Assembly: GCF_041154505.1 (NCBI RefSeq)
Contig: NZ_AP028672.1
Span: 5,000,501-5,064,500 of the forward strand
Reading direction: 5' to 3'
DNA length: 64,000 nucleotides
Source: Acidovorax sp. A79
GTDB lineage: Bacteria; Pseudomonadota; Gammaproteobacteria; Burkholderiales; Burkholderiaceae_C
Shown: in pieces, positions 5-51,577 of the stretch
How the letters are laid out: every line of letters starts with the position of its first letter
How positions within the stretch are numbered: position 1 is the stretch's first letter
Made by a program: the position numbers and the translations under genes
Notes under the pieces: generated by a model
The model's input: the letters and a program-made list of their open reading frames with translations, nothing else
Databases searched by the model: none
What the model was told of the DNA's origin: nothing

Positions 5-50
5 GTGGCGCTTGATATTCAATGGATTCTAGCTATCAATAGTGTAGCTT
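5..50 (+). repeat. dispersed repeat copy A
   Basis: A GGCGCTT block is followed by about 20 variable bases and an AGCTATCAATAGTGTAG tail. The same layout recurs about eleven times in this window. This copy lies upstream of the collagen-like gene. The rest of 51-403 holds no gene that I can support. Confidence 0.5.
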
Positions 51-403
51 TCCGGCACTCTGCTCCCACTCCGGTGGCGGCTGCGTGTGCGTCGTCTTTG
101 CCCGTCCGGTGGCCGCTGTGGCGGGCACGCATCAACGCGCCACCGTTGAACCGCCGGGGCGGGGTTCAGGCAGGGTTTTGGGTGGTCATTGTGAGAAAAT
201 GTTTCACCCATGGGGCCAGGGCCTGCGACCGTGATTCGGAATGCAAGCGCCCACCTGCGCGGCCGGGCCGGTGGGCGAGGGCGCAAGCCTGCCACGGCCG
301 CCCTCCAGGCGGGGTGTGCGGCCCCGCTGTAGTGGCGTGCCCGCGCGGCCGCCATCCCCCGTCTCCGCAAGGCAAGAAATCACCGAAGAAAGAGCTTCCG
401 ACC

Positions 404-2440
404 ATGTCCTCCCCGCGCGTTCATGCCAGCCCGTTGTTCCTCAGCCTGCTTGCGGCCGCGATGTGGGGCCCTGCCGCGCAGGCGGCGGACGTCACGATCC
501 GGCCGGCGGCGGGCTCGGGGTTTGCCGTCAAGGACGCCAGCGGAACGCAGATCCGCTTTCGCGTGGATGAGGGCGGCGCCATCGCCGCACCGGGGATCGG
601 GGCTTCCCCGGCGGTGGCCAACCGGGTGTGCTACGGAGCGGCCGGCGTGCTCGGTCCGTGCCAGGCTTCGGCCGTGGGGGCCACGGGCGCCACCGGCCCC
701 ACGGGGCCGACCGGACCCCAGGGGCCCGCGGGGGCCACCGGCGCCGCCGGCGGTGCGGGGCCTCAGGGGCTTCAGGGGCCTGTGGGGGCCACGGGGCCCG
801 CAGGCGCGGCAGGAACCACGGGCACCGCAGGCCCCGCCGGTGCGACGGGGGCCCCCGGGGCGGCCGGCTCGTTTGCGGGCAGCTACATGGGTGCCTGGTC
901 CGCGGCCACGGCCTATGCCTCCGGCACGCTGGTCAGCCAGGGCGGCTCGACCTACCTGCAGGTATCAGCTTCGGACTCGATCAACGCCGACCCTTCCGTG
1001 AGCCCCGCCGTCTGGGCGCTGGTGGCGCAGGCAGGCGCGGCTGGCGCCACGGGAGCGACGGGCGCCACCGGCTCCGCCGGCGTCGCAGGGGCGGCTGGCG
1101 CGGCCGGGCCAGCGGGTGCGGCCGGTCCCGCGGGAGCCACGGGCCCGGCCGGGGCCACCGGCGCGACGGGGGCCACTGGCGCCACGGGCGACCTAACGGG
1201 GGCCGTCCAGTTCGCGCCCGCCGTGCAGCAGGCTGCCACCACGTCCAGCGCGCTCGTCAACCTCAAGCTGGTCGGTGCCGCCACGCTGGGTTCGGCCGGC
1301 AATACGCCACTGCTGTCGCTGTCTGCCAGCGGCCTGTACCTGGATGGACAAAACCACGACAAGGAGCGTGTGCGTGTGGACAACGACGGCGCCATCCTGT
1401 CGGTGGGCGACTTTTCCAACGGCATGGGGGGCGCGCCGGCCGAAGGCCCGGGCACGCGGTTCCTGTGGTATCCGCAAAAAGCGTCCCTGCGCGCCGGGCA
1501 GATCGACGGCACCCAGTGGGACGACGCCAACATCGGCATGTATTCCACGGCGTTCGGCTACAACGCCAGGGCTTCGGGCGACTATGGCTTCGCCGTGGGG
1601 CAGGGTACGGTGGCTTCCAACGGCAACTCCGTGGCCATGGGGCTGTACAACGTCGCCTCCGGCTTCGCGTCGGTGGCGCTGGGGATGGGCGCGCATACCA
1701 ACGCGCGGCAAGGCTCGTTCGTTTTTGCCGACCGTTCGTTTTCCACCTTCTGCGACGGCGGCGTGTCCTGCTCGCCAGAAACCTACTTCCGCGCGGGGGT
1801 GAACAATTCCTTCAATGTGCGGGCCGCGGGCGGCGTGAACCTGTATACGAATGCCGCGGCCACCACCGGCCTGCGCATGAGCTATCTGTCCACCGGCGGG
1901 TCCAATTTCTACGGCAGCTTTGTGTGGACCGACCGCTCCAGCGATACCGCGATCACCCCGTCGGGCACGAACCAGGCCATCTTCCGGTCCTCGGGCGGCT
2001 TCACGATCTACACCGACGCGGGCCTGGCGGCCGGGGTCACGGTGGGCGCGGGGGGCGGCTCGTGGTCCTCCGTCTCCGACCGCAATCTCAAGGAGAACTT
2101 TGCGGCGGTCGATGGTGAAGACGTGTTGCGGCGCCTGCGCGCGGTGCCGGTGACCACCTGGAACTACAAGACAGAAGGCCTTGCGGTGCGCCACATGGGG
2201 CCCATGGCGCAGGATTTTTCCGCCGCTTTCCGCCTGGGGGACAGCGATACGAAAATTGCCACCATCGATCCTGACGGCGTGGCGCTGGCGGGTGTCCAGG
2301 CGCTGGACAAGCGCACGGTGGCGCAGCAGCAAAGGATCGATGCGCTCCAGAAGGACCTGCAGGCCAAGGAGGAGGCACTGGCCGCCATGGCCCAGCGCCT
2401 GCAGCGGCTGGAAAAGCTTCTCTCCCAGGCCAGGCCCTGA
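404..2440 (+). CDS. secreted collagen-like protein with C-terminal S74 chaperone domain
   Basis: A 678-residue secreted structural protein, probably a trimeric fibre. The reading frame is open from base 5, but the ATG at 404 is chosen because it starts a clear signal peptide (about residues 1-27, ending AQA). After a short N-domain come Gly-X-Y collagen repeats (about 92-155), a small module resembling a carbohydrate-binding module (about 156-208, with aromatic residues and a PAVW motif), a second collagen stretch (about 211-262), YadA-head-like repeats rich in ASG and ALG, then a Peptidase_S74 domain from about 558 (SDRNLKEN) and a coiled-coil tail. S74 domains of phage tailspikes help trimer folding and can release themselves by cleavage at the serine. 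Whether this copy cleaves is unknown. It stands alone, with no secretion genes nearby. Confidence 0.85.
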   Translation: MSSPRVHASPLFLSLLAAAMWGPAAQAADVTIRPAAGSGFAVKDASGTQIRFRVDEGGAIAAPGIGASPAVANRVCYGAAGVLGPCQASAVGATGATGPTGPTGPQGPAGATGAAGGAGPQGLQGPVGATGPAGAAGTTGTAGPAGATGAPGAAGSFAGSYMGAWSAATAYASGTLVSQGGSTYLQVSASDSINADPSVSPAVWALVAQAGAAGATGATGATGSAGVAGAAGAAGPAGAAGPAGATGPAGATGATGATGATGDLTGAVQFAPAVQQAATTSSALVNLKLVGAATLGSAGNTPLLSLSASGLYLDGQNHDKERVRVDNDGAILSVGDFSNGMGGAPAEGPGTRFLWYPQKASLRAGQIDGTQWDDANIGMYSTAFGYNARASGDYGFAVGQGTVASNGNSVAMGLYNVASGFASVALGMGAHTNARQGSFVFADRSFSTFCDGGVSCSPETYFRAGVNNSFNVRAAGGVNLYTNAAATTGLRMSYLSTGGSNFYGSFVWTDRSSDTAITPSGTNQAIFRSSGGFTIYTDAGLAAGVTVGAGGGSWSSVSDRNLKENFAAVDGEDVLRRLRAVPVTTWNYKTEGLAVRHMGPMAQDFSAAFRLGDSDTKIATIDPDGVALAGVQALDKRTVAQQQRIDALQKDLQAKEEALAAMAQRLQRLEKLLSQARP

Positions 2441-2697
2441 GGCGCGGGCGCAGCGGTGCGGACCAGGGCGCAGCAATTTGATACCTTGTGTGCGGGGGAA
2501 CGGGCTGCCCGCTGACATCGCCACCCCGCCATGCGGGCCATACTGCGAAGCCATCGCAATGGGCCGCCGCCGGCGACCCCGTTGCCTCGCGCAAGGGAAC
2601 TGCGGGCGGCCTGGCCCGTCACACCACTTCTTGGGCTGGCGCCCGCTTGCGGGCAGGCGCGGCCGATGATGATCCATGACACAAAAGGAGTGCCGGT

Positions 2698-3339
2698 TTG
2701 AGCTTTCCTTCGACCACCCCCATTGATCCAGGCGCCCTGGGCGCGCCTTCCTCCCGCGGATTTCCCGGCGGGGCGCCGGCTCTGCGCCGCGCCCGGACTT
2801 TCGTGGCGGCCCTGGCGGCAGGAGCCGCGGCGCTGGCCTTGCCAGGTTGCTCGGCCACGGGTGCCAAGACCTTCGCCGTGCCGGAGAACTTCGGATCGGT
2901 GGCCACCTACTCGCGCCTGTTCGATGCCACCCCGCAGCAGACCTGCGAGGCCTCGCGCCGCGCGCTGCTGAGCCAGGGCTACATCATCTCCACCCACCAG
3001 ACGGAGCTGGTGGAAGGCAAGAAGAGCTTCCAGCCGGAGGCCGAGTCGCACCTGCAGATGGTGGTGCGCGTGGTGTGCCTGCCGGAGGCCAGCGATGGCA
3101 AGGTGAGCCTGGGGTTCGTGACCGCGCTGCAGGACACCTATGCGCTGCGCAAGACCAACAACTCCGCCAGCGTGGGCGTGGGCGCCATCGGCTCGGTCTC
3201 GCTGCCGTTTTCCGCCAGCAGCGAATCGCTGGTCAAGGTGGGGAGCGAGACCATCTCCAAGGACACGTTCTACGAGAGCTTCTTTGACCTCGTCAAACGG
3301 TACCTGGCGATCGACCAGGCCCAGGCGGCCGGAGGCTGA
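2698..3339 (+). CDS. DUF2242-type lipoprotein
   Basis: A predicted outer-membrane or periplasmic lipoprotein of 213 residues. The start is a TTG at 2698, supported by a strong AAAGGAG ribosome site at 2684-2690. The N-terminus has a long polar leader, a hydrophobic segment and a lipobox ending LPGC at about residue 51. The remainder has the look of the DUF2242 family, whose function is not established; this assignment is from memory of the family. The leader before the hydrophobic stretch is longer than usual, so a later start is possible but has no better ribosome site. No obvious operon partner. Confidence 0.75.
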   Translation: MSFPSTTPIDPGALGAPSSRGFPGGAPALRRARTFVAALAAGAAALALPGCSATGAKTFAVPENFGSVATYSRLFDATPQQTCEASRRALLSQGYIISTHQTELVEGKKSFQPEAESHLQMVVRVVCLPEASDGKVSLGFVTALQDTYALRKTNNSASVGVGAIGSVSLPFSASSESLVKVGSETISKDTFYESFFDLVKRYLAIDQAQAAGG

Positions 3340-3387
3340 GGCCCCTTGCGGGATGCGCGCGGGGCCCGGCGAAGCCGGGCGGCGGCC

Positions 3388-3927
3388 TCACTGCCCGCGC
3401 CAGCGCGCCACCTGCTCCCATCCCGCGGGCCAGTCGCCCAGGCCGCTGTCGGCATTCACATGGCCGAGCGCGCCCAGCACCACGTGTTCGGCGTTCCACG
3501 CGCCCGCGCACCGCGCCGAAAAACCGGGGGTGGAGTAGGGATCGCTGGTACTGCTCATCAGCATGAGCCTGTGCATTGTCGGCAGCGCGGCGGGCAGCGG
3601 GAAGAAGCCCCGGGCATCGGCGGGAAACGCCGGGCCCTCGGGGTCGGGCACGGCCACCAGCAGCAGGGCGTGCAGCGGCCGGTGGTGGCGTGCGGCCCAG
3701 TGCACCGCCACCAGGCAGCCCAGGCTGTGGGCGACCAGGATGGGGGGCTGCGCCGCCGCCGCGATGGCGTCGTCGAGCGCCTGTACCCACGCGTCGCACA
3801 CGGGGTGATCCCAGTCCGCCTGCTCCACGCGCGCCACGTCCGCGTGCCGGGTTTGCCACAATGACTGCCAATGCCCGGGGCCGGAGTTGTGGATGCCGGG
3901 AATGAGCAAAACAGGTCGCGTCGCCAT
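3388..3927 (-). CDS. RBBP9/YdeN-type serine hydrolase
   Basis: A small alpha/beta hydrolase of 179 residues of the RBBP9/YdeN family (intracellular serine hydrolases of unclear substrate). The N-terminus shows the family's LIPGIHNSGPGHW motif. The nucleophile elbow is HSLGC, and late Asp (DPYS) and His (LGHVN) residues fit the triad. The ATG at 3927 is chosen because AAGGA lies just upstream; an upstream in-frame start would add an 11-residue non-conserved leader. It is convergent with the lipoprotein gene. Confidence 0.85.
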   Translation of the reverse strand: MATRPVLLIPGIHNSGPGHWQSLWQTRHADVARVEQADWDHPVCDAWVQALDDAIAAAAQPPILVAHSLGCLVAVHWAARHHRPLHALLLVAVPDPEGPAFPADARGFFPLPAALPTMHRLMLMSSTSDPYSTPGFSARCAGAWNAEHVVLGALGHVNADSGLGDWPAGWEQVARWRGQ

Positions 3928-4058
3928 TGGTGTTCCTTGTCGTGAAAGCAGATCCATCACTGCCCCCCGACGATAGGAAAATCATGCCGCCGCGGCCAGC
4001 GGGCTTCATCGGAAAGCGCGCCCCCAAACCTTGAAAGCATCGCAAAGGAACCATCCCC

Positions 4059-4496
4059 GTGGAACTGGACAAGAAAGACCGGCAGATCCTCATGGCCCTG
4101 CAGGACGATGCGCGGCAGAGCCTGTCGGCGCTGGGCAAGAAGATCGGCCTGTCGCAGCCGGCGATGAGCGAGCGCGTGAAGAAGCTCGAGGACGCGGGGG
4201 TGATCTCGGGCTACGCGGCGCGCATCGACCTGGCCGCCGTGGGCCTGGGCCTGCAGGCCGTGGTGCGGGTGCGCACCACGCACGAGCACATCAAGCGCTA
4301 CGTGCAGCTGTTCCAGTCCATGCCCGAAGTGCTGGATGCCGTGCGCGTGACGGGCGAGGACTGCTTCGTGGTGCGTTGCGCCTTCGGCCAGCCCGCCGAC
4401 CTGGAGCGCGTGGTCGATGCGCTGGCGGCCCATGGCAGCGTGTCCACATCGCTGGTGCTGTCCCATCCCGTGCACAAGGCGGTGCCGCTGGCGTGA
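4059..4496 (+). CDS. Lrp/AsnC family transcriptional regulator
   Basis: A 145-residue Lrp/AsnC regulator. An N-terminal winged helix (about 1-60, with the recognition segment LSQPAMSERVKKLE) is followed by a RAM/AsnC effector domain (about 65-140). The family senses amino acids and forms octamers or dimers on DNA. The start is GTG at 4059 with AAAGGAA at 4044-4050. It faces away from the hydrolase gene across about 130 bases. It may control that gene or distant targets, and the effector cannot be read from the sequence. Confidence 0.9.
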   Translation: MELDKKDRQILMALQDDARQSLSALGKKIGLSQPAMSERVKKLEDAGVISGYAARIDLAAVGLGLQAVVRVRTTHEHIKRYVQLFQSMPEVLDAVRVTGEDCFVVRCAFGQPADLERVVDALAAHGSVSTSLVLSHPVHKAVPLA

Positions 4497-4523
4497 GGGG
4501 ACGTGCAAGACGGGACGGCTTGC

Positions 4524-4567
4524 GGCGCTTTCAGTATCAATCTAGGTTGCTATATAAAATATAGCAA
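4524..4567 (+). repeat. dispersed repeat copy B with perfect hairpin tail
   Basis: A GGCGCTTT block is followed by TTGCTATAT (4547-4555), AAA and ATATAGCAA (4559-4567), a perfect 9-base inverted repeat. It sits between two convergent genes, where it could also act as a bidirectional transcription end. The layout matches the other dispersed repeats. Confidence 0.55.
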
Positions 4568-4576
4568 ATCTTGCCT

Positions 4577-5119
4577 CTACGGCCGCGGCACCTCGTAGCG
4601 CAGCTCCGCGAAGATGCCGCCCAGCGTGGTCACGGACTTCAGGCGCAGCGTGGGCTGCACGATGGACCGCGGAAACAGCGGCGCGCCCGCGCCCAGCGTG
4701 ACCGGTGCGATCTGCACGATCAGCTCGTCCAGCAGGCCCGCGTCATGGAACTGCCCCACGAGTTCGCCGCCACCCACGATCCACACATTGCGCCCTGCTG
4801 CGGCCCGCGCCATGGCCTGGTGCACGGGCCGCACGTCGCCCTGCACAAAGCGCACGTCGGCACCGGGAATCGCGCGCAGCCTGCGCGAACTGAACACCCA
4901 CGTGGGCTGCGGGTAGGGCCAGGGCTGGCCCGCGTCGATGGCATTTCTGAGCATCCATTCGTAGGTGTGCGAGCCCATGGCCAGCGCGCCCACATCGCGG
5001 ATGAAAGCGGGGTAGCTGGAGCCCTCGATCTCGCCAAACTGCAGCAGCCAGCCGAGGTCGTGGTCGGGCGTGGCGAGGAAGCCGTCGAGGCTGGAGGCGC
5101 CATAGAACTGGGTGGTCAC
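4577..5119 (-). CDS. dihydrofolate reductase family protein (RibD C-domain)
   Basis: A 180-residue protein of the RibD C-terminal/dihydrofolate-reductase-like family. It has an N-terminal SLDGFLA motif, MGSHTYEWM in the middle, and a nucleotide-binding VGGGELVGQ loop at about 120. The family reduces pterin- or pyrimidine-like substrates with NADPH, but standalone members such as this are mostly uncharacterised. The start is GTG at 5119 with GGAAGGAA directly upstream. The in-frame ATG at 5242 would add 41 residues of non-conserved sequence and was rejected. Confidence 0.85.
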   Translation of the reverse strand: MTTQFYGASSLDGFLATPDHDLGWLLQFGEIEGSSYPAFIRDVGALAMGSHTYEWMLRNAIDAGQPWPYPQPTWVFSSRRLRAIPGADVRFVQGDVRPVHQAMARAAAGRNVWIVGGGELVGQFHDAGLLDELIVQIAPVTLGAGAPLFPRSIVQPTLRLKSVTTLGGIFAELRYEVPRP

Positions 5120-5280
5120 GCGGATTCCTTCCGGTCGGTGGGTGGCCCTGCACTGTAGTGCGCGCTGGTGACAGCGTACTGGCAGCAATGGTGCGTTGCG
5201 CGCGGCCTCGCGGGGCCCTTGAAACCCCGTTCGCGCGGGCACGCGAATAGCGCGAGGAGCCGATGGAGTGAATTTTTAGA

Positions 5281-8156: not shown

Positions 8157-8164
8157 ATAGCAGC

Positions 8165-15287: not shown

Positions 15288-15302
15288 GCGGGGAATTGTG
15301 TT

Positions 15303-15365
15303 TGAATGAAATTGGCCGCTGGCGCTTGTCCATCAAGCGCAATAAGCTATCAAAATAATAGCTAT
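15303..15365 (+). repeat. dispersed repeat copy C (fullest copy)
   Basis: GAATGAAATTGGCC, then GGCGCTTGTCCATCAAGCGC with complementary GCGCTTG and CAAGCGC arms, then AGCTATCAAAATAATAGC, a second small hairpin. It fills the gap between the pseudouridine synthase and the M23 peptidase; the TAG stop of the peptidase falls in the tail. This is the best reference copy for the family. Confidence 0.7.
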
Positions 15366-17735: not shown

Positions 17736-17741
17736 CGGTGC

Positions 17742-17805
17742 TTGAATGAAATAGGGCGCCAGCGCTCCTGGTGAAAGCGCCGCCTGCTATCAAAAGTGTA
17801 GTTTT
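17742..17805 (+). repeat. dispersed repeat copy D
   Basis: TTGAATGAAATAGGGCGCCAGCGCT, a middle GAAAGCGC, then CTGCTATCAAAAGTGTAG. It starts seven bases after the stop of the cardiolipin synthase gene and points the same way as copy C. Confidence 0.65.
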
Positions 17806-18115: not shown

Positions 18116-18160
18116 GGCGAGTCCTTGTTGCTGAACCGGGCAGGGTAACCGAGTTTGACA

Positions 18161-18217
18161 AGAAATGGGCGTGTAGCGCTTGTTGGACAAGCGCAATATG
18201 CTATAAAAAATAGAGCA
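18161..18217 (+). repeat. dispersed repeat copy E
   Basis: AGAAATGGGC, TAGCGCTTGTTGGACAAGCGC with complementary arms, then ATGCTATAAAAAATAGAGCAT. It follows the layout of copy C. Confidence 0.65.
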
Positions 18218-18515
18218 TTGGCCGTGGACGGAGACTGGGCGTGCCGGCCCCTGCGCGGTGCGGGCCTGCATGGCACGCCGCTTGCAACGCTGGGGGGTTG
18301 TGCAAACGCTGCCGTCAACGCGCGTCCATGCACGCGTGCACTGCCCGTCCTGCGCCGCTGGCACCACCCCGGATGAATGCCCCTGGCTTTTGCCCGCGGG
18401 CCTGCTGTAATGTTTGCGGCGACGGGGTGTGCCGGCCGCTGCGGCCCGCGTGGCCGGTGCACCGTGCTGCCACACCCTTCGCCAAGCCACCTTTCACCCA
18501 CTGGAGAACCTCGAA
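18218..18515. other. non-coding stretch upstream of binding-protein gene
   Basis: About 300 bases without a supportable gene. Open frames here lack ribosome sites and read as shadows. It presumably holds the promoter for the gene at 18516; I see no convincing -35/-10 pair. Confidence 0.4.
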
Positions 18516-22160: not shown

Positions 22161-22200
22161 GGCTGGCTTGTGGCCTTCTGGCCAGCGCGCTGAGATTTCA

Positions 22201-22253
22201 GTGAAATGGGCTGCTGGCGCTGGATGGATAAGCGCTGGCAGCTATCAAAACTG
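22201..22253 (+). repeat. dispersed repeat copy F
   Basis: GTGAAATGGGCTGCTGGCGCT, GGATGGATAAGCGCTGGCAGCTATCAAAACTG. It lies 40 bases after the flavodoxin gene and lacks the final ATAG arm seen in copy C. Confidence 0.65.
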
Positions 22254-22311
22254 AAGCGCAATCGATTCCAGGAAGAAAGACGCACCGGCCCCTGCGCGCG
22301 CGGGCACCGGT

Positions 22312-35281: not shown

Positions 35282-37951
35282 ATGAACGCCCCCACCGCAC
35301 ACCACCACCTGCTCACGCCGGCATCGGCCGCACCGTTGGCCGATACGGACCCCGAAGAAACCGCCGAGTGGCGCGACGCCTTCCTGGCGCTGGTCGCCAC
35401 CGAAGGCCCGGAGCGGGCGCGGCACATGCTGCAGGAACTGGTGCGCCTGGCGCGCGCGCAGCGCATCGGCTGGCAGCCGGACCTGAACACGCCGTATGTG
35501 AACACCGTGGCGGTGCAGGACCAGCCCGTCTTCCCCGGCGACCTCGCCATCGAGGAGCGCGTGGCTTCCATCGTGCGCTGGAACGCGCTGGCGATGGTGG
35601 TGCGCGCCAACCAGGCCTATGGCGAACTGGGCGGCCACATCGCCAGCTACGCCAGCGCGGCCGATCTTTTCGAGAGCGGCTTCAACCACTTCTTCCGCGC
35701 CCGTGAAGGCCTGGGCGAGGGGCAGCACCGGGGCGACTTGGTGTTCTTCCAGCCGCACAGCGCGCCGGGCGTGTATGCGCGGGCGTTCCTCGAAGGCCGC
35801 CTGTCCGAGCAGGACCTGAAACACTACCGCCAGGAGCTCACGGCGCCGGGCGCGGGTGCGCAGGGCCTGTCGAGCTACCCGCACCCCTGGCTGATGCCGG
35901 ACTTCTGGCAGTTCCCCACGGGGTCGATGGGCATCGGTCCCATCAGCAGCATTTATCACGCGCGCTTCATGCGCTACCTCACGCACCGCAACCTGCTCGA
36001 CTGCTCGGCGCGCAAGGTCTGGGGCGTGTTCGGCGATGGCGAGATGGACGAGCCCGAGAGCATGAGCGCGCTGACCCTGGCCGCGCGCGAGGGCCTCGAC
36101 AACCTGGTCTGGGTGGTCAACTGCAACCTGCAGCGGCTGGACGGCCCGGTGCGCGGCAACGGCCGCATCATCGACGAGCTGGAGCGCCTGTTCGCCGGTG
36201 CGGGCTGGAACGTGGTCAAGCTCGTGTGGGGCAGCGACTGGGACGGCCTGTTCGCCCGCGACCTGACCGGTGCGCTGGTGCGCACGCTCGAAGGCACGGT
36301 GGACGGCCAGATGCAGACCTTTGCCGCCAAGGACGGGCGCTTCAACCGCGACAACTTCTTCGGCCAGAACCCCGAGCTGGCGGCCCTGGCCCAGGGCATG
36401 ACGGACGAGCAGATCGATCGCTTGAAGCGCGGCGGGCACGACTTGGTGAAGATCCACGCCGCGTATGCCGCCGCCGCGCGCCACCAGGGCCAGCCCACGG
36501 TGATTTTGGCGCACACCAAGAAGGGCTACGGCATGGGCACGGCCGGCCAGGGCAAGATGACCACGCACAGCCAGAAGAAGCTCGACGAGACGGACCTCAT
36601 CGAGTTCCGCAACCGCTTCAACCTGCCCCTGTCCGACGAGCAGGCCACCAGCCTCGCGTTCTTCAAGCCCGCCGAAGACAGCCCCGAGATGCGCTACCTG
36701 CGCGGCCACCGCCAGAACCTGGGCGGCTACCTGCCGCGCCGCGACACCACCTGCGACGCGCTGCCCGTGCCGGCCATCGCCAGCTACGCGCAGTTCGCGT
36801 TGCAGCCGCAGGCCAAGGAGATGAGCACCACCATGGCCTTCGTGCGCATGCTGGGCAGCTTGCTCAAGGACGCCACGCTGGGCCCGCGCATCGTGCCCAT
36901 CGTGGCCGACGAGGCGCGCACCTTCGGCATGGCCAACCTGTTCAAGCAAGTCGGCATCTACAGCAGCGTGGGCCAGCGCTATGCGCCCGAGGACATCGGC
37001 TCGGTGCTGAGCTACCGCGAGGCGCTGGACGGCCAGATTCTGGAAGAAGGCATCAGCGAGGCCGGCGCCATCGCCAGCTGGACGGCCGCGGCCACCAGCT
37101 ACAGCGTGCACGGCCTGGCCATGCTGCCGTTCTACATCTACTACTCGATGTTCGGCTTCCAGCGCGTGGGCGACGCCATCTGGGCCGCCGCAGACCAGCG
37201 TGCGCGCGGCTTCCTGCTGGGCGCCACCTCGGGCCGCACCACGCTGGGCGGCGAGGGCCTGCAGCACCAGGACGGCTCCAGCCACCTGGTAGCCGCCACC
37301 ATCCCCAACTGCAAGGCCTACGACCCGGCCTACGCGGGCGAGATGGCCGTGATCATCGACGCCGGCATGCGCGAGATGGTGACCGAGCAGCGCGACGTCT
37401 TCTACTACGTGACGCTGATGAACGAGAACTACGCCCAGCCCGACCTGCCTGCCGATGCGGCAGAAGGTGTGCTGCGAGGTTGCTATGTTTTCAGGAGCTA
37501 TCCGCGCTTGATGGACGGCCGTGAAGGGCCAATTTCATCCAAAAGCGTCACCCTGATGGGCTCCGGCGCCATCCTGACCGAGGTGGTCAAGGCCGCCGAA
37601 CTGCTGGCAGGCGAGGGTGTGGACGTGACCGTGCTCAGCGTGACCAGCTGGAGCGAGCTGGCCCGCGACGGCGTGGCCTGCGAACAGCGTGCGCTGGAGG
37701 GGGAGGCGCGGCCCGGCGTGGCGTGGCTGACGCAGCAACTGGCGGGCACACGCGGCCCGGTGATTGCCGCCACCGACTATGTGCGCGCCGTGCCGGAGAC
37801 CGTGCGCGCGTTCGTGCCGCAAGGCCGTCGCTTCGTCACATTGGGAACGGACGGTTTTGGGCGCAGCGATACGCGGGCGGCGCTGCGGGCGTTTTTTGGG
37901 GTGGACGCGGCGGCGGTGGCGCGCGCAGCCCGGTTTGCATTGGCGGGGTAG
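35282..37951 (+). CDS. homodimeric pyruvate dehydrogenase E1-like subunit (AceE/MdeB type)
   Basis: An 889-residue thiamine-diphosphate enzyme of the AceE family, which decarboxylates a 2-oxo acid and passes the acyl group to an E2 lipoyl domain. The thiamine motif [14 protein letters not shown] with [14 protein letters not shown] (about 253-285) is intact, as is [10 protein letters not shown] at the C-terminus. No E2 or E3 gene is next to it, unlike housekeeping aceE, and it faces an Lrp gene. It may serve 2-oxobutyrate or pyruvate. A dispersed repeat is read in frame at about residues 733-753, adding about a dozen residues relative to E. coli AceE, recalled from memory. Confidence 0.9.
37480..37540 (-). 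repeat. dispersed repeat copy G, inside the E1 coding sequence
   Basis: Read on the minus strand this is GGATGAAATTGGCC, then GTCCATCAAGCGC and GGATAGCTCCTGAAAACATAGCAA, matching copy C in order and spacing. In the gene frame it encodes part of the segment from FRSYPR to GREGPISS. Confidence 0.6.
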
Positions 37952-40271: not shown

Positions 40272-40853
40272 TTACTTCACCAGGGTGGCGGAGTTGATGG
40301 TGACGGGGGCGGTGGGCACGTTCTGGTGCGGGCCCTTGTTGCCGGTGGCCACGGCCTTGATCTTGTCGACCACCTCGGTGCCGCTCACCACCTTGCCGAA
40401 CACGGCATAGCCATGGCCGTCGGGGCTGGGAGCATTGAGCATCGCGTTGTCCTTCACGTTGATGAAGAACTGCGACGTGGCCGAGTTGGGGTTGCCTGAG
40501 CGCGCCATGGCGATGGTGTAGTTGTCGTTCTTGAGGCCGTTGCCGGCTTCCAGCGGAATCGGGGCCTTGGTGGGCTTGGGAATCAGGTCGGCCGTGTAGC
40601 CGCCGCCCTGGATCATGAAGCCGTCGATCACGCGGTGGAACACGGTGCCGTCGTAGTACTTGTCCTGCACGTAGGCCAGGAAGTTCTCGACCGTCTTGGG
40701 TGCCTTGGCGGGATCGAGCTGCACCACGATGTCGCCCATCGAGGTGGACAGCTTGACCTTGGGGGCATCTTGCGCCTGCACGGGTGCTGCAGAAAAGATA
40801 GCTGCCAGCGCAATGCTGGAAAGTGCCAGGGTCGAATTTCTTCTGGAAATCAT
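40272..40853 (-). CDS. ppiA: periplasmic peptidyl-prolyl cis-trans isomerase (cyclophilin)
   Basis: A 193-residue cyclophilin with a signal peptide (about 1-28, ending PVQAQ). The active-site segment is VFHRVIDGFMIQGGGY, and SATSQFFINV follows. It is exported by prediction and would help fold envelope proteins. Its ATG overlaps the stop of the L,D-transpeptidase gene by four bases (ATGA), so translation is coupled. The signal-peptide codons match a dispersed repeat (40791-40842), an unusual origin. Confidence 0.94.
   Translation of the reverse strand: MISRRNSTLALSSIALAAIFSAAPVQAQDAPKVKLSTSMGDIVVQLDPAKAPKTVENFLAYVQDKYYDGTVFHRVIDGFMIQGGGYTADLIPKPTKAPIPLEAGNGLKNDNYTIAMARSGNPNSATSQFFINVKDNAMLNAPSPDGHGYAVFGKVVSGTEVVDKIKAVATGNKGPHQNVPTAPVTINSATLVK
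40791..40842 (-). repeat. dispersed repeat copy H, across a signal peptide
   Basis: On the plus strand AGAAAAGATAGCTGCCAGCGC, then AAGTGCCAGG and TCGAATTTC, in the same order as the reverse complement of copy C. The match is weaker in the middle. The frame gives the hydrophobic core of the ppiA signal peptide. Confidence 0.45.
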
Positions 40854-42145
40854 CCAATCACTCCTTCAAAAAATATCTGCCATTGTTGGCCCCGCCGCGC
40901 CCAGTACTGGCGCTTGACGGGGCCCGTGCGGGCGCCTGCGGCGACTTCGCCGAACGTTACCACCATGGTGTCGGCGGAATCTGTCCAGCGCAGGTAAGAC
41001 TTGTCCTTGAGGTGTAGTTCCCTGCCCCGCAATGCGCGGGTCTCGGCCTGGAGCACCTGGGACCACTCTTGCAGCGGTTTCTTGCGGTAGCTCTGGAAGT
41101 CCGGCGCGTAGAAACCCATCAGGCGGCTCATGTCGCCCTCGGTCTTGGCGCTGCGCCAGGCGTTGAGCACCGCGTCGAAGGATTTGCGGTCCGCCTGTAC
41201 CGCGTGCGGTGCCACCCACTGCAGCTGGCGCGTGATGACCACGGGCGTGGAGCGGGGCTCCACCGTGCGCAGGATGCGTTCGAGGTCGGGATTGGCCAGC
41301 ACCAGGCAGCCATCGGTGGCCAGGGGCGCGCGGGCAAACTGGTCGGGCGGCGTGCCGTGCAGCCAGATGCCGCCACCGGTCTTGCCCCGGCTCTGGTCCA
41401 GGGGGTTGGGGTAGTTGATGGGCAGCGCGCCCGCGCCGTAGAAGTCCTTGAGCGTGGCGGGGTCCAGCCGGCTGGTGATGAAGTAGACGCCCAGCGGGGT
41501 GCGCTGGTCGCCTTCCAGGTTCTTCTCGATGCCCAGCTTGCCGACAGAAGCGTAGTAGTCGGCGACCAGCTGCAGGCCCTTGGGGGTGTTCTCGAACAGG
41601 TACAGGCGCGAACGCGAGGCATCCACCGCGATGGCATGGCGGGAGCGGGGCGAGAGCTCCAGGAACTGCGCCGGGATGCTGTGCGCCGGGGGGCGGCTGC
41701 GCTGGGCATCCACGCGCTGGCGCGATTCGTTGCGCAGTTCTTCCAGCGTGGCAGCCGTCTGGATGCTGCGGGCCGAGTCGGGCTCGGGCACATCGCCCAG
41801 GCGGCGGATCGGCCGCGTGCGCGCCATCAACAGGTCGCCCACCACCAGTTGCGCCAGCTGGAAGTTGGGATAGTCGCGCGCCAGGGCCTCGGCCTGCGCC
41901 AGCGCCTCGCGGTGGCGGCCCTCGGCGATGAGCTGGTACACCACCATGAGGCGTGCCTCCGCCTGGCCATCGCGCAGGGCGGGTGCCGTGGAGCCCGCGG
42001 CTTGCATGGGCCGGACCGAGGTGACGGCCGCCGCGCCCCGGGACTTGGCGCTCTGGGGCAGCACCGGGGCTGCGTGCAGGAGCGCCGCCAGGCAAAGGGC
42101 GCCCGCCACGGCCGGGCGGCTTCGTGCGGACAACGCCACAAGCAT
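40850..42145 (-). CDS. L,D-transpeptidase with C-terminal NTF2-like domain
   Basis: A 431-residue exported L,D-transpeptidase (YkuD fold). After a signal peptide and a small TPR-like region (about 50-110), the catalytic domain covers about 165-310: IWLHGTPP and the nucleophile in TDGCLVLANPD. A C-terminal segment (about 330-430) resembles the NTF2/SnoaL-like 'Cds6' domain found in some transpeptidases. The enzyme links peptidoglycan stems or anchors proteins to them. The next gene starts inside its stop codon. Confidence 0.9.
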   Translation of the reverse strand: MLVALSARSRPAVAGALCLAALLHAAPVLPQSAKSRGAAAVTSVRPMQAAGSTAPALRDGQAEARLMVVYQLIAEGRHREALAQAEALARDYPNFQLAQLVVGDLLMARTRPIRRLGDVPEPDSARSIQTAATLEELRNESRQRVDAQRSRPPAHSIPAQFLELSPRSRHAIAVDASRSRLYLFENTPKGLQLVADYYASVGKLGIEKNLEGDQRTPLGVYFITSRLDPATLKDFYGAGALPINYPNPLDQSRGKTGGGIWLHGTPPDQFARAPLATDGCLVLANPDLERILRTVEPRSTPVVITRQLQWVAPHAVQADRKSFDAVLNAWRSAKTEGDMSRLMGFYAPDFQSYRKKPLQEWSQVLQAETRALRGRELHLKDKSYLRWTDSADTMVVTFGEVAAGARTGPVKRQYWARRGQQWQIFFEGVIG

Positions 42146-44919: not shown

Positions 44920-44933
44920 TCGTTGTGTTTGTC

Positions 44934-44993
44934 ATGGAAAACGCCTGCTGGGCGGATGGGACGCCCGGTGGCAGCTTCTAAAAAGATAGCATC
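44934..44993 (+). repeat. dispersed repeat copy I, weak, at the glycosylase start
   Basis: CATGGAAAACGCC, a GGATGGGACGCCC middle and GGCAGCTTCTAAAAAGATAGCAT tail. The tail fits the family well and the 5' half poorly. It lies over the first codons of the glycosylase gene. Confidence 0.35.
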
Positions 44994-46843: not shown

Positions 46844-46870
46844 CGGTTCCGGGGACGCTTTCCTGCCCAC

Positions 46871-46898
46871 CACCAACGGCCCTGCGGGGCCGTTGGTG
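46871..46898 (+). terminator. strong hairpin after accA
   Basis: CACCAACGGCCC and GGGCCGTTGGTG form a perfect 12-base stem with a TGCG loop, but the T tract is poor (CTTCTGG). It may be a terminator or an mRNA-stabilising end. Confidence 0.6.
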
Positions 46899-47039
46899 CT
46901 TCTGGCCAGGGTTCTCCGCCCTTGCCGTGGCCGGGAGGCGCCGATAATCGGCCGCCATGTGCCGCCGCCCCCTTGTTGCCCTTGTTGTTGTTGACGCCGC
47001 CACAGGTTCCTGGCCCTTGCCCTGGCGCCACGGGGAGGC

Positions 47040-48011
47040 ATGGACATGACCTTGTCCTTCGACGCGGCCATGCAGGCCTTCGAGCCTGCGCTGCCCCTGG
47101 CGGTCGGATTCAGCGGCGGTGCGGATTCCACGGCGCTGCTGCTGGCATGCGCCCGGCGCTGGCCTGGCCAGGTGCGGGCGATCCACGTGCACCATGGCTT
47201 GCAGCCAGCGGCTGACGGTTTTGCGCGGCACTGCGAAGACCTGTGCCAAGCCCTGGATGTGCCGCTGGCGGTGCAGCGCCCGGACGCCCGCCACGCGCCG
47301 GGGCAAAGCCCGGAAGACGCTGCACGGCAGGCAAGGTACAAGGCATTTGAGGCGGTAGCGCTTGCCAGTAAAGCGCATAATGCTATTAAATCAATAGCAA
47401 TCGCGCAACACGCGGATGACCAGGTCGAAACGCTCGTGCTGGCCCTGTCGCGCGGGGCCGGTGTGGCCGGGCTGGCGGCGATGCCCGCCCGCTGGCGCCG
47501 CGCGGGCATTGACTGGTACCGCCCCCTGCTGCGGGTGGCCGGGGCTGACGTGCGCCAGTGGCTGCGGGCACAGGGGCAGGGGTGGGTGGAAGACCCGACC
47601 AATGCCGATGAGCGCTTCACGCGCAACCGCATCCGCGCGAGGATCTTGCCCGTGCTGGAGGCCGCATTCCCTGCGTTTCGCGACACCTTTGCGCGGTCCG
47701 CCCAGCATGCGGCGCAGGCGGACGAACTGCTGGAAGAACTTGCACTGCAGGACCTGGCCATCGTGGGCGCACCGCCGCGCATCCGGGCCTTGCAGGGCCT
47801 GAGCCGCGCCCGGCAGGCCAATGTGCTGCGCCACTGGCTGCGCGTCGAGCACCACACCACGGCGGCCGCGGCGCAATTGAATGAACTGCTCGACCAGGTG
47901 CAGTCGTGCACCACACGCGGCCACCGCATCCACATCAAGGTCGGGCATGGTTTTGCCGTCCGGTCCGGGCCGGAACTCGATTGGTACAGTCCAGAGGTGT
48001 TGGCCCCCTGA
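47040..48011 (+). CDS. tilS: tRNA(Ile)-lysidine synthase
   Basis: A 323-residue PP-loop ATPase that converts C34 of tRNA-Ile(CAU) to lysidine. The motif GFSGGADSTALLL is at about 22-34 and HADDQVETLVLALSRGAG at about 122-139. The C-terminal domain is short, so it is a small-type TilS. Residues about 104-121 are encoded by a dispersed repeat. ATG 47040 is used. The conserved ATP- and tRNA-binding residues look intact. Confidence 0.92.
   Translation: MDMTLSFDAAMQAFEPALPLAVGFSGGADSTALLLACARRWPGQVRAIHVHHGLQPAADGFARHCEDLCQALDVPLAVQRPDARHAPGQSPEDAARQARYKAFEAVALASKAHNAIKSIAIAQHADDQVETLVLALSRGAGVAGLAAMPARWRRAGIDWYRPLLRVAGADVRQWLRAQGQGWVEDPTNADERFTRNRIRARILPVLEAAFPAFRDTFARSAQHAAQADELLEELALQDLAIVGAPPRIRALQGLSRARQANVLRHWLRVEHHTTAAAAQLNELLDQVQSCTTRGHRIHIKVGHGFAVRSGPELDWYSPEVLAP
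47346..47400 (+). repeat. dispersed repeat copy J, inside tilS
   Basis: TTTGAGGCGG, TAGCGCTTGCCAGTAAAGCGC and ATGCTATTAAATCAATAGCA, closely following copies C and E. It is read in frame and lies just before the HADDQ motif. Confidence 0.65.
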
Positions 48012-48041
48012 CCGCACGAACCACGGCGGCGCGCCGGGGCA

Positions 48042-48842
48042 GTGTCCTTCAGTGTGGTCGAAACTCGAAGCCTGCGGGCGGTGAGTTTCGAGGAAAAGCT
48101 CGAAATGGCGAGCCTGGGCAGCAAGTTGCCGAAGATCCGCTGGGTGGAGCTCGCGGGCAAATACAACAAAAGTGAGGTCCATGCGCGGGCTGTCCAGCTT
48201 CACGCCCTGGTGCATCGACGTCAACGAAGAAGCCAGGTCCGCACGCGGATCACTTTTGAGAAAGACAAAAAAATGGAACAAGCCGTCGTATCCGGCATCA
48301 CATTCAACCGCGACGAAGCCAAGATCTCCGTGCTGGGCGTGCCCGACAAGCCGGGCATCGCCCACCAGATCCTGGGCGCCGTGGCCGATGCCAACATCGA
48401 GGTCGACGTGATCATCCAGAACGTGGGCAAGGACGGCAAGACCAACTTCAGCTTCACCGTGCACCGCAACGATTGCGCGCGCACCGTCGAGCTGCTCAAG
48501 GAGAAAGTGGTGTCCGTGCTGGGCGCGCAGGAGGTCGTGGGCGACACCAGCTGCTGCAAGGTGAGCATCGTCGGCAGCGGCATGCGCAGCCACGTGGGCG
48601 TGGCGAGCAAGATGTTCCGCACGCTGCGCGAGGAGGGCATCAACATCCAGATGATCTCTACCTCCGAGATCAAGACCTCCGTCGTGATCGACGAGGAGTA
48701 CGTCGAACTGGCCGTGCGCAGCCTGCACAAGGCGTTCGAGCTGGACCAGCAAGCCGCCTCACCCGCCAGAAGCGCCCCGGAAATGGGGCATAATAGCGGG
48801 ATTGGAAACGTGACCGAGTGGCCGAAGGTGCTCCCCTGCTAA
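48042..48842 (+). pseudogene. lysC: truncated, frameshifted lysC (aspartate kinase) remnant with ACT domains
   Basis: Only the C-terminal part of aspartate kinase is present. The frame starts near VSFEEKLEMASLGSKL, which lies past the middle of the normal kinase domain. The N-terminal 160 or so residues, including the KFGG nucleotide motif, are missing; tilS ends just upstream. LSSFTPWCIDVNEEARS appears in another frame at about 48190-48240, so there are two compensating frameshifts. From ATG 48273 onward (MEQAVVSGITF) the two ACT domains look intact, like the beta subunits of some aspartate kinases. The frame reads through to a stop in the tRNA anticodon loop. Function is doubtful; a full lysC must exist elsewhere. 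Confidence 0.75.
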
Positions 48843-48896
48843 GGGAGTATGGGGTGTAGAGCCTCATCGAGGGTTCGAATCCCTCCGTTTCCGCCA
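48804..48896 (+). tRNA. tRNA-Ser(GCT)
   Basis: A type II tRNA with acceptor stem GGAAACG/CGTTTCC, an encoded CCA end at 48894-48896, the T-arm with GGTTCGAATCC, a long variable arm and anticodon GCT at 48838-48840 in a CTGCTAA loop closed by CTCCC/GGGAG. It reads AGC and AGT serine codons. The lysC remnant overlaps its 5' half. The mobile element begins just beyond it. Confidence 0.97.
48870..48896 (+). other. candidate integration site (attL) at the tRNA 3' end
   Basis: The T-arm and acceptor end of tRNA-Ser are the usual target of tyrosine integrases, and an integrase gene starts 190 bases downstream pointing inward. The matching right copy would lie outside this window, so the boundary is inferred. 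Confidence 0.45.
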
Positions 48897-48901
48897 GAGC
48901 T

Positions 48902-48934
48902 AAAAAAACCCGCCCTAAACCAGCGGGTTTTTTT
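48902..48934 (+). terminator. terminator after tRNA-Ser
   Basis: AAAAAAACCCGC and GCGGGTTTTTTT arms around CCTAAACCA make a classical terminator with T run. Confidence 0.9.
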
Positions 48935-49086
48935 ACGTCTGTGCTCTGCGTTGACCCCATATAAAACAACGTGGTACGCTTCGATCCATGTTGTTTTATA
49001 CAGTGTTTTCGCAGCGAGCAGTCAACCGGTTGCCGCGCTCAATTCAAATTTTTTGGGTCTACATGATGGCCTACAGAAATTGAGCC

Positions 49087-50307
49087 ATGCCGAAGCGAAT
49101 CCTTGAGATGACAGCGCTGGAGGTTTCCAGGCTGCGCGTGGAAGGCTCGCACGCTGTGGGTGGGGTCAGCGGCTTGTATCTTCGGATTGAAGGCGGGTCG
49201 CGCACCTGGGTGCTGCGGTATGTGCACATGCGCCAGCGTAGGCGCATGGGCCTGGGCAGCTATCCCGGTGTGACGCTGGCTGCAGCACGCGAGGCAGCGC
49301 GCGCAGCGCTGGGGCAGCGTGATGCAGGCATCGACCCCATCAAGTCGCGCCAGGATGAACGGGAGGCCGCCCGCCTGGCAGCCGCCCAGCGGCTGGAGTT
49401 CGACAAGGCGGCTGATGCGTTCATCACTGAACACGAAAGCACTTGGCGCAACGCCAAGCACGCGCAGCAGTGGCGCAACACCCTCGCCACCTACGCGTCA
49501 CCGCATTTTGGTCGGCTGTCGGTCTCAGAGATTGAACAGTCCCACGTCCTGCGCGCGCTCGCGCCCATCTGGAAAACCAAGACTGAAACCGCTACGCGAG
49601 TGCGCGGGCGAATTGAACAGGTGCTGGATTGGGCTACCGCCCACGGCCACCGCACCGGCCCCAATCCTGCGCGCTGGCGCGGACAGCTGGAGCACATCCT
49701 GGCCAACCCGGAAAAGGTTGCCCCGGTCAAACACCGAGCCGCAGTGCCCGTGGCCGATCTGCCCGCCGTGTATCAGCAGATTGCCGCTGTTGATGGTCAA
49801 AGCGCCCGCGCTCTGTGTTTTCTGATCCTGACCGCTGTTCGCTCGGGCGAGGTGCGCGGCATGTTGTGGAGCGAGGTCGATCTAGACGCAGGCCTGTGGG
49901 TTATTCCCGCTGCGCGGATGAAGGCCAACCGGGAGCATCGCGTGCCCTTGTCTCGCCAAGCTGTTGCGCTGCTGCGCATTCAGGGGGCCGCGCGCGAGGA
50001 GCTGGTGGAACAGGTGTTTCCCAGCAACCGCAAAGGCCCGCTGTCAGACATGGCATTCACCGCCCTGATGCGCCGCCACAAGCTGGCAGCCGTGCCCCAC
50101 GGTTTCCGCTCAACGTTCCGGGACTGGGCGGGCGAAACCACACACCACCCGCGCGATGCCGTGGAGCTATGCCTAGCCCACACGATTGACACGAAAACCG
50201 AAGCCGCCTACCGGCGCGCCGATATGCTGGATAAGCGGACCGTCATTATGCAGAACTGGGGGGATTATTGTGCTCCTTTTGATAATCCTGCCCCAGGTCC
50301 AGACTAA
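49087..50307 (+). CDS. int: tyrosine recombinase/integrase
   Basis: A 406-residue P4/phage-type integrase that inserts the element at tRNA-Ser. The N-terminal DUF4102-like arm-binding region (about 1-90) has GLYLRIEGGSRTWVLRY; the catalytic domain shows Arg (SGEVRGMLWSEV, about 257), HGFRSTFRDW (about 338) with HxxR, and the nucleophile Tyr in EAAYRRAD (about 379). All catalytic residues appear present. It overlaps the next, opposite gene by 62 bases. Confidence 0.94.
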   Translation: MPKRILEMTALEVSRLRVEGSHAVGGVSGLYLRIEGGSRTWVLRYVHMRQRRRMGLGSYPGVTLAAAREAARAALGQRDAGIDPIKSRQDEREAARLAAAQRLEFDKAADAFITEHESTWRNAKHAQQWRNTLATYASPHFGRLSVSEIEQSHVLRALAPIWKTKTETATRVRGRIEQVLDWATAHGHRTGPNPARWRGQLEHILANPEKVAPVKHRAAVPVADLPAVYQQIAAVDGQSARALCFLILTAVRSGEVRGMLWSEVDLDAGLWVIPAARMKANREHRVPLSRQAVALLRIQGAAREELVEQVFPSNRKGPLSDMAFTALMRRHKLAAVPHGFRSTFRDWAGETTHHPRDAVELCLAHTIDTKTEAAYRRADMLDKRTVIMQNWGDYCAPFDNPAPGPD

Positions 50308-50725
50308 ACCTGAATTTCATCAATTCTGTCCTCAAACTGTCAATCTGGGCGCCTAGTCTTTCACAAGCATCGACGATCAATCTTGATCGATCTTCTGTTA
50401 TTTTCTTGAAATTTCCGCTTCCATCAAAAATATTCACTAAATCATAAACTACATGCACGTGCTCGCCAATATCCGAAATCACACCAATTTTTTGACCCTG
50501 GATAGTCTTATATGCACCAATTTCAAATATTGCCCTATGCCCGCTAAGCAAATATTCGCCGGCATCGCTGCGTAGCGTGCGCCTTAGAGCCTGTTCCCGG
50601 ACAATACCGATCCTCGTCAATAAATCACTTAGTACGAGAAACAAGTAAGTGGCCGAACGTATTGTCTCACCTGCATCGTCATCAAATCTTGCAACAGACT
50701 CGCCAAATGCAGCTCGATCTGTCAT
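50246..50725 (-). CDS. unknown cytosolic protein, AT-rich cargo
   Basis: A 159-residue soluble protein without recognised domain, largely helical with conserved-looking blocks (SATYLFLVLSDLLTRIG, GEHVHVVYDLVNIFDG). Its ATG overlaps the stop of a small membrane-protein gene by ATGA, so the two are coupled. Base composition is far less GC-rich than the chromosome. It ends inside the integrase gene. The pair sits at the entry of the element, where accessory cargo is common. Confidence 0.65.
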   Translation of the reverse strand: MTDRAAFGESVARFDDDAGETIRSATYLFLVLSDLLTRIGIVREQALRRTLRSDAGEYLLSGHRAIFEIGAYKTIQGQKIGVISDIGEHVHVVYDLVNIFDGSGNFKKITEDRSRLIVDACERLGAQIDSLRTELMKFRFSLDLGQDYQKEHNNPPSSA

Positions 50726-50931
50726 GAATGCGACAGACAAGCCACGAGCATGGCCCCGGTCGCGGATAGATATCCACTCGCTGTTGCATTGTCATTATCA
50801 AGCAGTGCCCTAAAAATATACACTGACATAAATGATATAAAAAACACCAATACCAACGACAATCTAACTGCAATTTTGTGATTTTGAGTTTTTTTGAGTA
50901 CCATTGCAGACATTACACGTTGCTTTTTCAT
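50722..50931 (-). CDS. small two-helix membrane protein, coupled to the previous gene
   Basis: A 69-residue protein with a basic N-terminus, one strong hydrophobic helix (about 24-44) and a second weaker one (about 53-66). ATG 50931 has a good GGAGGG ribosome site six bases upstream. Its stop overlaps the start of the 159-residue protein, so the products may form a membrane complex. No family recognised. Confidence 0.6.
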   Translation of the reverse strand: MKKQRVMSAMVLKKTQNHKIAVRLSLVLVFFISFMSVYIFRALLDNDNATASGYLSATGAMLVACLSHS

Positions 50932-50983
50932 TTGCCCTCCATACGAAATTTTTCACAGCCCTGTCGCTCATGCCTTCATCCCT

Positions 50984-51058
50984 GCATCCACTCCAGCACC
51001 TCGGACAACAGCCAAAACAGCTTAGCGCCCATCTTGCATGGATGCGGAACGCCACGCT
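50984..51058 (-). pseudogene. AlpA-like regulator relic
   Basis: The minus strand encodes GVPHPCKMGAKLFWLLSEVLEWMQG and a stop here in one frame, similar to PRKMGAKLFWLVAEVVEWLQG of the intact AlpA-like gene at 52737. A stop codon lies directly upstream in the same frame, so only the tail of a gene survives. Confidence 0.55.
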
Positions 51059-51138
51059 ACTCGCTCCATGCGCCGACATGATCGAAAGCGTGAAGGCATC
51101 ATGTAGGACTGGTTCAACTATTGCACAGAGGGGCACAC

Positions 51139-51468
51139 GTGAGTTCAGATGAACAGTTCGACAGAACAATGGAGAAGTTTTGCAGCAAGAACGGTATTCA
51201 AGCCTTGCTGCAAATGGTTGAACGCGGCGACTTCGTAGGCGAACAGGAAGTTAAGGCACGTGCGTTTCTGTCAAAAAAGGCGGAGGAAGCGGTGACTCGC
51301 TACCAGCTCAGCCCGGAATATTCGGTGCTACGCCAAGCGAATGCGGCAGAGCGGTCCAACAAACTCAGTGCAGAGGCAAATGCCAAGGCCCATCGTGCGT
51401 ACGTCATGTCAGCGATTGCGGTCGTCGTTTCGTTGGTGGCCCTTGTCATTCAGCTGGTCAAGGGCTGA
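51139..51468 (+). CDS. helical protein with C-terminal membrane anchor
   Basis: A 109-residue protein: a long charged helical region (about 10-85, with EEAVTRYQLSPEYSVLRQANAAERSNK as an example, shown only in part) and a C-terminal hydrophobic segment (about 88-106). GTG 51139 follows AGAGGGG; a TTG at 51121 is an alternative start. No recognised domain. Part of the accessory cargo between integrase and the Rha gene. Confidence 0.6.
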   Translation: MSSDEQFDRTMEKFCSKNGIQALLQMVERGDFVGEQEVKARAFLSKKAEEAVTRYQLSPEYSVLRQANAAERSNKLSAEANAKAHRAYVMSAIAVVVSLVALVIQLVKG

Positions 51469-51525
51469 ACGATTGCTGGCAGAGTTAGCTAGCAACGCGC
51501 CTCTCCCACAACCATGTAAGTAGCC

Positions 51526-51577
51526 AAAATGGCCCTAGCGCTTACGCCTTAAGAGCTGGAAGCTATCAATTCAGTAG
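51526..51577 (+). repeat. dispersed repeat copy K, at the end of the Rha gene
   Basis: AAAATGGCCCTAGCGCTTACGCCTTAAGAGC, then AAGCTATCAATTCAGTAG. The last Rha codons and its stop lie in the tail. This is the only copy seen inside the mobile element. Confidence 0.5.

Follow-up and report, generated by a model that had tools for sequence, protein, structure and literature searches.

In a window of 64,000 nucleotides from Acidovorax sp. A79 (the whole stretch of DNA analysed; contig NZ_AP028672.1, positions 5,000,501 to 5,064,500), we found copies of a dispersed repeat of about 66 bp, in which a 22-bp core separates a left box from the right box GCTAT-N7-ATAGC. Both boxes and their spacing were kept in other genera of the family. 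The cores of these genera were of equal length, unrelated in sequence, mostly non-palindromic and largely uniform within a genome. We tentatively read the repeat, with somewhat less than even confidence, as a dispersed mark in double-stranded DNA that is likely read by a protein and may be kept in the dialect of its host in place, not by transposition. The extrapolated copy number was about 775 in the 5.87 Mb genome, and so many fixed and constrained copies, with a genus word that differs even at an orthologous coding site, are not what is normally seen with small mobile repeats.

Copy number and architecture of the repeat

The initial annotation had reported eleven copies in the window. All eleven places were found to hold at least part of the repeat (Table 1), and the repeat was confirmed to be real, with a copy number far above eleven. 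A 66-column weight matrix (match cut-off 18 bits or more) gave 114 matches in 864 kb of the same genome and 0 in 5 Markov shuffles, so the excess over shuffled sequence was present. The palindrome GCGCTT-N7-AAGCGC, with at most one mismatch, was found 448 times in this genome compared with 47 for the reversed control, and the core plus GCTAT, with at most two mismatches, 267 times compared with 0. The covariance model used to score the window copies was trained on 29 copies from other parts of the genome; whole-genome searches with such models score at most 150 candidates.

The left box (AAAT-N-GGCC-N-CTAGC) occupied columns 10-24 of the matrix, followed by the core in columns 25-46 and the right box in columns 47-63. 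The left box took the form AAATNGGCC-CTAGC, with the consensus AAATNGGCCNCTAGC. In this genome, the palindrome comprised the core and the last bases of the left box. In the column profile, A/T tracts were found about 21 bp to the left and right of the core centre. The copies were single, and most contained about 40-50% GC.

Base-level constraint and structure

Constraint was compared in intergenic orthologous copies (32 of 46 and 32 of 51 pairs; the rest were unanchored or differed in length by more than 40 bp). No change was found in GCTAT (0/120 and 0/125 sites), followed by 13/288 and 13/300 changed sites in the palindrome arms. The loop (39/168 and 38/175) and the flanks (133/586 and 145/601) were all changed at 22-24% of sites. 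Within the genus, the GCT of columns 47-49 was invariant in all 217 copies. The right box was also found alone, with 15 matches of at least 17 bits outside full copies compared with 0 in 3 shuffles, while the core alone gave 1 match compared with 1.3. Since GCTAT was unchanged and the right box survived alone, the right box ranks first in function.

Structured RNA ends had been one of the options in the initial annotation. No compensatory change or coupling was found in the GCGCTT/AAGCGC arms or in the right box, the state of the T-tract (A/T-tract) showed no link to the direction of transcription, and the wobble state (G-U versus A-C) did not differ between sense and antisense copies. That option was thus not borne out and, as judged from sequence, the repeat is not a conserved RNA hairpin. 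In the first 24 of 96 copies, the Acidovorax-type element was more stably folded than its shuffles (mean z of -2.2 on one strand and -2.3 on the other); for the other dialects the margin over shuffles was small (mean z from -0.3 to -1.8 over both strands, strongest in the four copies of genome G216).

Stability of positions and turnover

In the two species G021 and G033 (about 92% identity), all of the anchored copies were shared (33/33 and 34/34) and no insertion difference was found. Both flanks had to be anchored, which left out 13 and 17 further copies, and at two shared sites with gaps of more than 1 kb in the other genome the copy there may be another one. The insertion polymorphism between close strains that a mobile family would have shown was thus absent from this genome pair, and the repeat is not actively moving. 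The fidelity of copies varied as first described, and no pair among 96 copies was more than 82% identical. Within each of four genomes no two copies were 85% alike, and the column profile was near-identical in G000, G021, and G010 (1 of 66 columns differed at p < 1e-3), which is unlike a family with recent bursts.

Larger distances showed turnover. Locus D was a gap of 24-31 bp, devoid of the element, in five species (G024, G003, G017, G032, and G006). Of 20 gaps at gltB, 17 were 190-203 bp long, with the 21-bp gene ends counted in; GCTAT was kept in 14 of the 20 by eye and the palindrome was eroded in many. Upstream of gltB (L201-L220), a conserved stretch around TATCAAATTTGATATGTCCC followed the element remnant in most species, and this stretch may be a separate regulatory site of gltB. 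The palindrome loop occurred equally in both orientations (96 and 97 of 210 copies, with 17 ties). By eye, the loop at locus C was GTCCATC in G000, G060, G009, G012, and G019 and GATGNRT in G022, G014, G010, and G027, so the apex of the palindrome has probably flipped at one site between species. At locus D of G014 (L305), a segment with inverted ends had entered the element at a CTAG that recurs beyond the segment, and at locus C of G010 (L342), an insertion of about 1.1 kb was found inside the element copy. Insertions seem to use the element as a landing site.

Mobilisation by a REP-associated tyrosine transposase (RAYT; REP, repetitive extragenic palindrome) had also been suggested. Of the 35 other genomes in the genus, 33 contained a Y1_Tnp gene; G001 and G030, with no element by the core pattern and 3 and 1 model matches, were among the 33. 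The gene adjoined gltB in 20 fetched loci from as many species, with the element touching it in 3 of the 20, and this RAYT-like gene beside gltB looks domesticated. Given its presence in element-free genomes and the lack of linkage, a RAYT was rejected as the mobiliser. The column profile contained no GTAG/CGTC tetranucleotide beside the stem; an RTAG was present at columns 59-62, inside the right box.

Core dialects across genera

A strict right-box pattern was found in 229, 136, 119, and 100 copies in G158, G172, G095, and G124, respectively, with 0-1 in the control, and in 6, 1, and 2 copies in G031, G004, and G001. The Acidovorax-type core pattern was found 0 or 1 times in G158, G095, G124, and G172. 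Among 200 genomes of the family, 43 contained matches to the Acidovorax-type core, in 35 of 141 genera. Acidovorax, Simplicispira, Giesbergeria, Comamonas, Diaphorobacter, Ottowia, Extensimonas, Ramlibacter, and Polaromonas were named carriers among the matches listed. Copy counts varied within a genus (485 and 15 in genus g40).

The other dialects were described from 40 stretches of 5 genomes, picked by eye from the exact matches listed for the right box. Each stretch was oriented by whichever left-box match was better (7 to 14 of 15 positions, with shifts of at most 3). The right box was the selection pattern in these genera, so its sharing there is not independent. The core word was CCAATAGAATATCGCGGGAGCA in G124 (12 copies, 92% to the consensus), CGGCGTATTTATTGCCTAAGCA in G091 (10 copies, 84%), and CCATGTAAATACTGCTCAAGCA in G095 (8 copies, 84%), where two more copies beside aceE were nearly the same. 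The word of G216 (4 copies) was a close relative of that of G091.

The site inside aceE

Copy G of the window lies inside aceE, which encodes pyruvate dehydrogenase E1. Of the 28 same-genus loci fetched, 27 were readable; 24 orthologs contained the copy and 3 (G004, G031, and G015) did not. Tyr735 of the right box was encoded by TAT in 26 of 26, the sole such column among 28 conserved tyrosines, with TAC prevailing in most of the others. In other genera (26 of 30 loci read), the aceE loop was 25-26 residues long in most orthologs with the right box and 16-17 in most of those without it. The aceE core of G124 scored 29.4 bits with its own dialect and 1.1 with the next, and that of G095 scored 27.7 and 14.5; neither copy had been used in defining its dialect word. 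The aceE cores of four genera of dialect A (G063, G070, G064, and G154) scored 15-18 bits with dialect A. Since the aceE core is the host word in both G124 and G095, we read the core as having changed in place; repeated conversion at this one site may be an alternative.

Placement, orientation and spacing

The placement counts cover 210 copies from five regions in three genomes. Most copies are common to G021 and G033, which makes the 210 non-independent, and the counts of 217 copies omit G033. Between called genes, 152 copies were found, and 58 were inside a called coding sequence; genes were called with a home-made codon scorer, so these 58 are partly calling errors. Convergent gaps contained 54 copies compared with 27.8 expected by intergenic length, a twofold excess, followed by 20 compared with 39.8 in divergent gaps and 78 compared with 84.3 in tandem gaps. 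The tandem-gap copies were 36 sense and 42 antisense, and the orientation of the repeat is random relative to genes. Positions peaked just after stop codons, and copies were spread across the whole chromosome. The right end of a copy was also considered as a ribosome-binding site. Its GGAG variants were present in 1 of 7 copies before a start and in 16 of 161 others, and this role was unsupported.

With coding GC as a proxy for islands, 1 copy was found in 9 scan windows below 0.58 (1.4 per 100 kb), 13 copies in 20 scan windows at 0.58-0.62, and 13.5-15 copies per 100 kb at 0.62-0.72. This scarcity at low GC fits an old resident of the core genome. In three named-plasmid stretches (Diaphorobacter, Comamonas, and Acidovorax; deposited, incomplete annotation), 14 of 14 copies were between genes or at most 30 bp over a gene end, and several spanned the whole gap from a stop to the next gene. 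One of these plasmids, of Comamonas odontotermitis (L458), contained 10 elements in 40 kb together with core-type genes (argB and slmA), which suggests that it is a chromid. Element C was not found in phage records. The dialect words gave one partial Delftia match and one viral match among plasmids and viral contigs, and the Acidovorax-type core was found in 25 stretches of viral contigs.

Comparison with known repeats

The DNA uptake sequence (DUS) is 12 bp long, and DUS and uptake signal sequences are more evenly spaced than chance. In Neisseriaceae, DUS come in dialects, and uptake is controlled by a species word together with a short core that the dialects share (PMC3630211). As in the part of that study considered here, the present repeat has very many copies, lineage variants uniform within a species or genome, perhaps a short core needed in all, and copies in permissive intergenic and coding places; we also count as a likeness that some DUS copies are arranged in dyads (PMC3630211). 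Like DUS, it is biased to the core genome and scarce in low-GC, island-like stretches. Unlike DUS, it spans 66 bp, with a variable core of 22 bp between two fixed boxes; it is not known to have a ComP-like reader, and any role in uptake is putative. With REPs and the related REPINs it shares hundreds of short palindromic intergenic copies. It differs from them in lacking a GTAG/CGTC tag next to the palindrome, young copies and, in the compared pair, insertion differences; it does not as a rule flank a RAYT, and the palindrome is mostly absent from other dialects. On this comparison, the repeat would best be read as resembling uptake-sequence dialects more than mobile REPs. No name of this bacterial group was found in the parts of PMC3733652 (six names) or PMC12306157 considered.

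Parts of the repeat are already in print. A spaced motif of Acidovorax ebreus, GCTTAT(N)5AAGCG (114 copies; 44 convergent, 4 divergent, and 59 co-oriented), and one of Polaromonas naphthalenivorans, ATAGCT(N)22CAAAAG (125 copies), were reported as unexplained (PMC5217627). The first is part of the present core and has the same gene context; the second, with its 22-bp spacing beside ATAGC, may be another dialect. The section of PMC5217627 on these motif pairs does not contain the 66-bp unit, the boxes, the constraint or the dialects. Beta-proteobacterial repeat elements (BRE) are about 90 bp long, with an average of 69% GC in Bordetella, sometimes tandem, and at most 29 copies, according to the part of PMC3110155 considered. 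The present element likewise occurs in Betaproteobacteria including Acidovorax and Polaromonas and is mostly intergenic, but its length, its hundreds of copies, its lower GC and its single arrangement differ, and BRE is a different repeat. In the part of the literature covered by our search, no published description of a two-box unit of 66 bp with a dialect core was found.

Interpretation of the repeat

In the reading that we tentatively prefer, a sequence-specific protein would read the element as double-stranded DNA; the symmetric right box and the base-level constraint without structure point to such a reader. Reader and core would change together. The copies may first have spread by copying in an ancestor: 54 of 210 loops differed by at most one base from a single ancestral loop read in either direction, where 14.6 would be expected, despite evolution of the loop at the rate of the flanks. 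A common word may then arise through change of the reader, through biased exchange as in uptake sequences, or through conversion between copies. If a reader protein matches each dialect, the family would offer a way to study the marking or organisation of a bacterium's own DNA and the concerted change of hundreds of dispersed sites.

Several observations weigh against this reading. The reader protein is a postulate, and none was found. The outer stem showed weak coupling (pairs 20-22 with 42-44, p 0.007-0.03), and stem 1 contained 70 double-changed cells compared with 52.8 in shuffles. G031 and G004 were almost element-free (4 and 7 model matches). Single-gene trees, each of one gene and poorly resolved, put G031 (and G004 in the aceE tree) among element-rich relatives, and decay along such short branches, on which the loss was nearly total, seems too slow to have erased all of their copies. 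Both genomes are large (7.5 and 7.1 Mb). In six regions together, copies were spaced more evenly than if placed by intergenic length, and no more evenly than one copy per gap; region R2 alone was more even (P 0.009). The choice of stretches and their turning by the left box favour the dialect reading, and the cores of G184 were loose (6 copies, 65% to the consensus). The aceE core of G147 departs from the dialect of its genome, and unlike aceE cores were also seen in genera outside the genome-wide dialect sample, such as those of G158, G107, and G100. Of the 27 same-genus aceE sites, 16 scored at least 10 bits with dialect A, 8 scored lower, and 3 were without the element.

A REP-like repeat, or one like a miniature inverted-repeat transposable element, could have been amplified in each lineage by a transposase acting in trans (a RAYT or another), with the dialects as master copies and with new waves, or gene conversion, replacing the older copies. 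Such a history would account for the many copies of a lineage-specific core in each genome, the presence or absence at locus D and the different counts within a genus, and the 65 bits shared over 66 columns would be hard to reach without copying. We consider it unlikely, given that insertion differences and near-identical copies were absent, that the right box is strongly constrained, that genomes without elements still contain the RAYT-like gene, and that aceE dialects differing by genus would need repeated hits or conversion at one site. The suggestion of a REP-like element thus held for the number of copies, their intergenic position and their bias towards gene 3' ends, and failed for the RAYT, young copies and insertion differences. 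In a more far-reaching reading, to which we give a low probability, the repeats would be self-recognition marks of the Comamonadaceae, a third uptake-sequence system beside those of Neisseriaceae and Pasteurellaceae. The mark would be exceptionally long, with the 22-bp word framed by the two fixed boxes, and biased exchange would have rewritten the word in step at hundreds of sites, even in aceE.

REPs of E. coli have been proposed as sites for nucleoid proteins or topoisomerase near gene ends. Similar sites of a nucleoid-organising protein or topoisomerase, without dialect-matched exchange, would agree with the orientation-free palindromic right box, the 3'-end preference, the chromosome-wide copies and the A/T tracts either side of the core; such sites alone do not explain the genus-specific cores, and together with the strong reduction in low-GC stretches this makes them quite improbable. 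The excess in convergent gaps, the peak after stop codons and the folding of the Acidovorax-type element could also indicate transcription terminators or hairpins of 3' untranslated regions that share sequence by chance. We regard these as very improbable, since the tract and wobble states were not linked to the direction of transcription, the other dialects folded little better than shuffles, and a copy is kept inside aceE. A directional terminator was rejected on the T-tract result.

Copies in the window

Copies C, D, E, F, and J, which the initial annotation had called clear, scored E-values of 1.3e-16 to 1.2e-8 with the covariance model, and copy K was in the same range. The positions first given were right to within a few bases, except that copy B reaches further left; the covariance model found its right box alone (4549-4565, E 1.2).

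Table 1. Positions of the repeat copies, and of the parts of copy C, in the window
Feature	Position	Strand	Description
Copy A	31..48	+	Right box (GCTAT-N7-GTAGC) only; model columns 46-63, E 0.31
Copy B	4503..4568	+	Weak full copy, right box intact; 31.6 bits by matrix
Copy C	15300..15365	+	Clearest in the window, E 1.3e-16; orthologs at the same place in other genomes
Copy C, left box	15309..15323	+	AAATTGGCCGCTGGC (consensus AAATNGGCCNCTAGC); matrix columns
Copy C, core	15324..15345	+	22 bp, Acidovorax-type dialect; GCGCTT-N7-AAGCGC including the left-box end
Copy C, right box	15346..15362	+	GCTAT-N7-ATAGC; most constrained part
Copy D	17740..17805	+	Between convergent genes; covariance model
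Copy E	18154..18219	+	Between divergent genes as called; covariance model
Copy F	22195..22260	+	Between convergent genes; covariance model
Copy G	37479..37544	-	In frame inside aceE (35282-37951, +); E 7.7e-4, 53 bits
Copy H	40783..40848	-	Immediately downstream of a YkuD-domain gene (40850-42109, -); E 2.3e-4, 41 bits
Copy I	44928..44993	+	Weak, between tandem genes; E 7.9e-3, 25 bits
Copy J	47336..47401	+	Between convergent genes; covariance model
Copy K	51516..51581	+	Between convergent genes, inside a phage-like island; covariance model

An Rfam search gave a tRNA as the sole match. Copy H was also found in the first codons of an uncalled open reading frame (40272-40853, -), where by eye it would encode a signal-peptide-like stretch, and it was conserved in G010. 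The region 48804-62000 was found to be a P2-like prophage or island beside a tRNA-Ser gene, and contained genes for a phage integrase (49087-50307), pRha, a GPA replication protein (54240-55796), an Ogr/Delta zinc finger, and a Vsr endonuclease (61542-61976).

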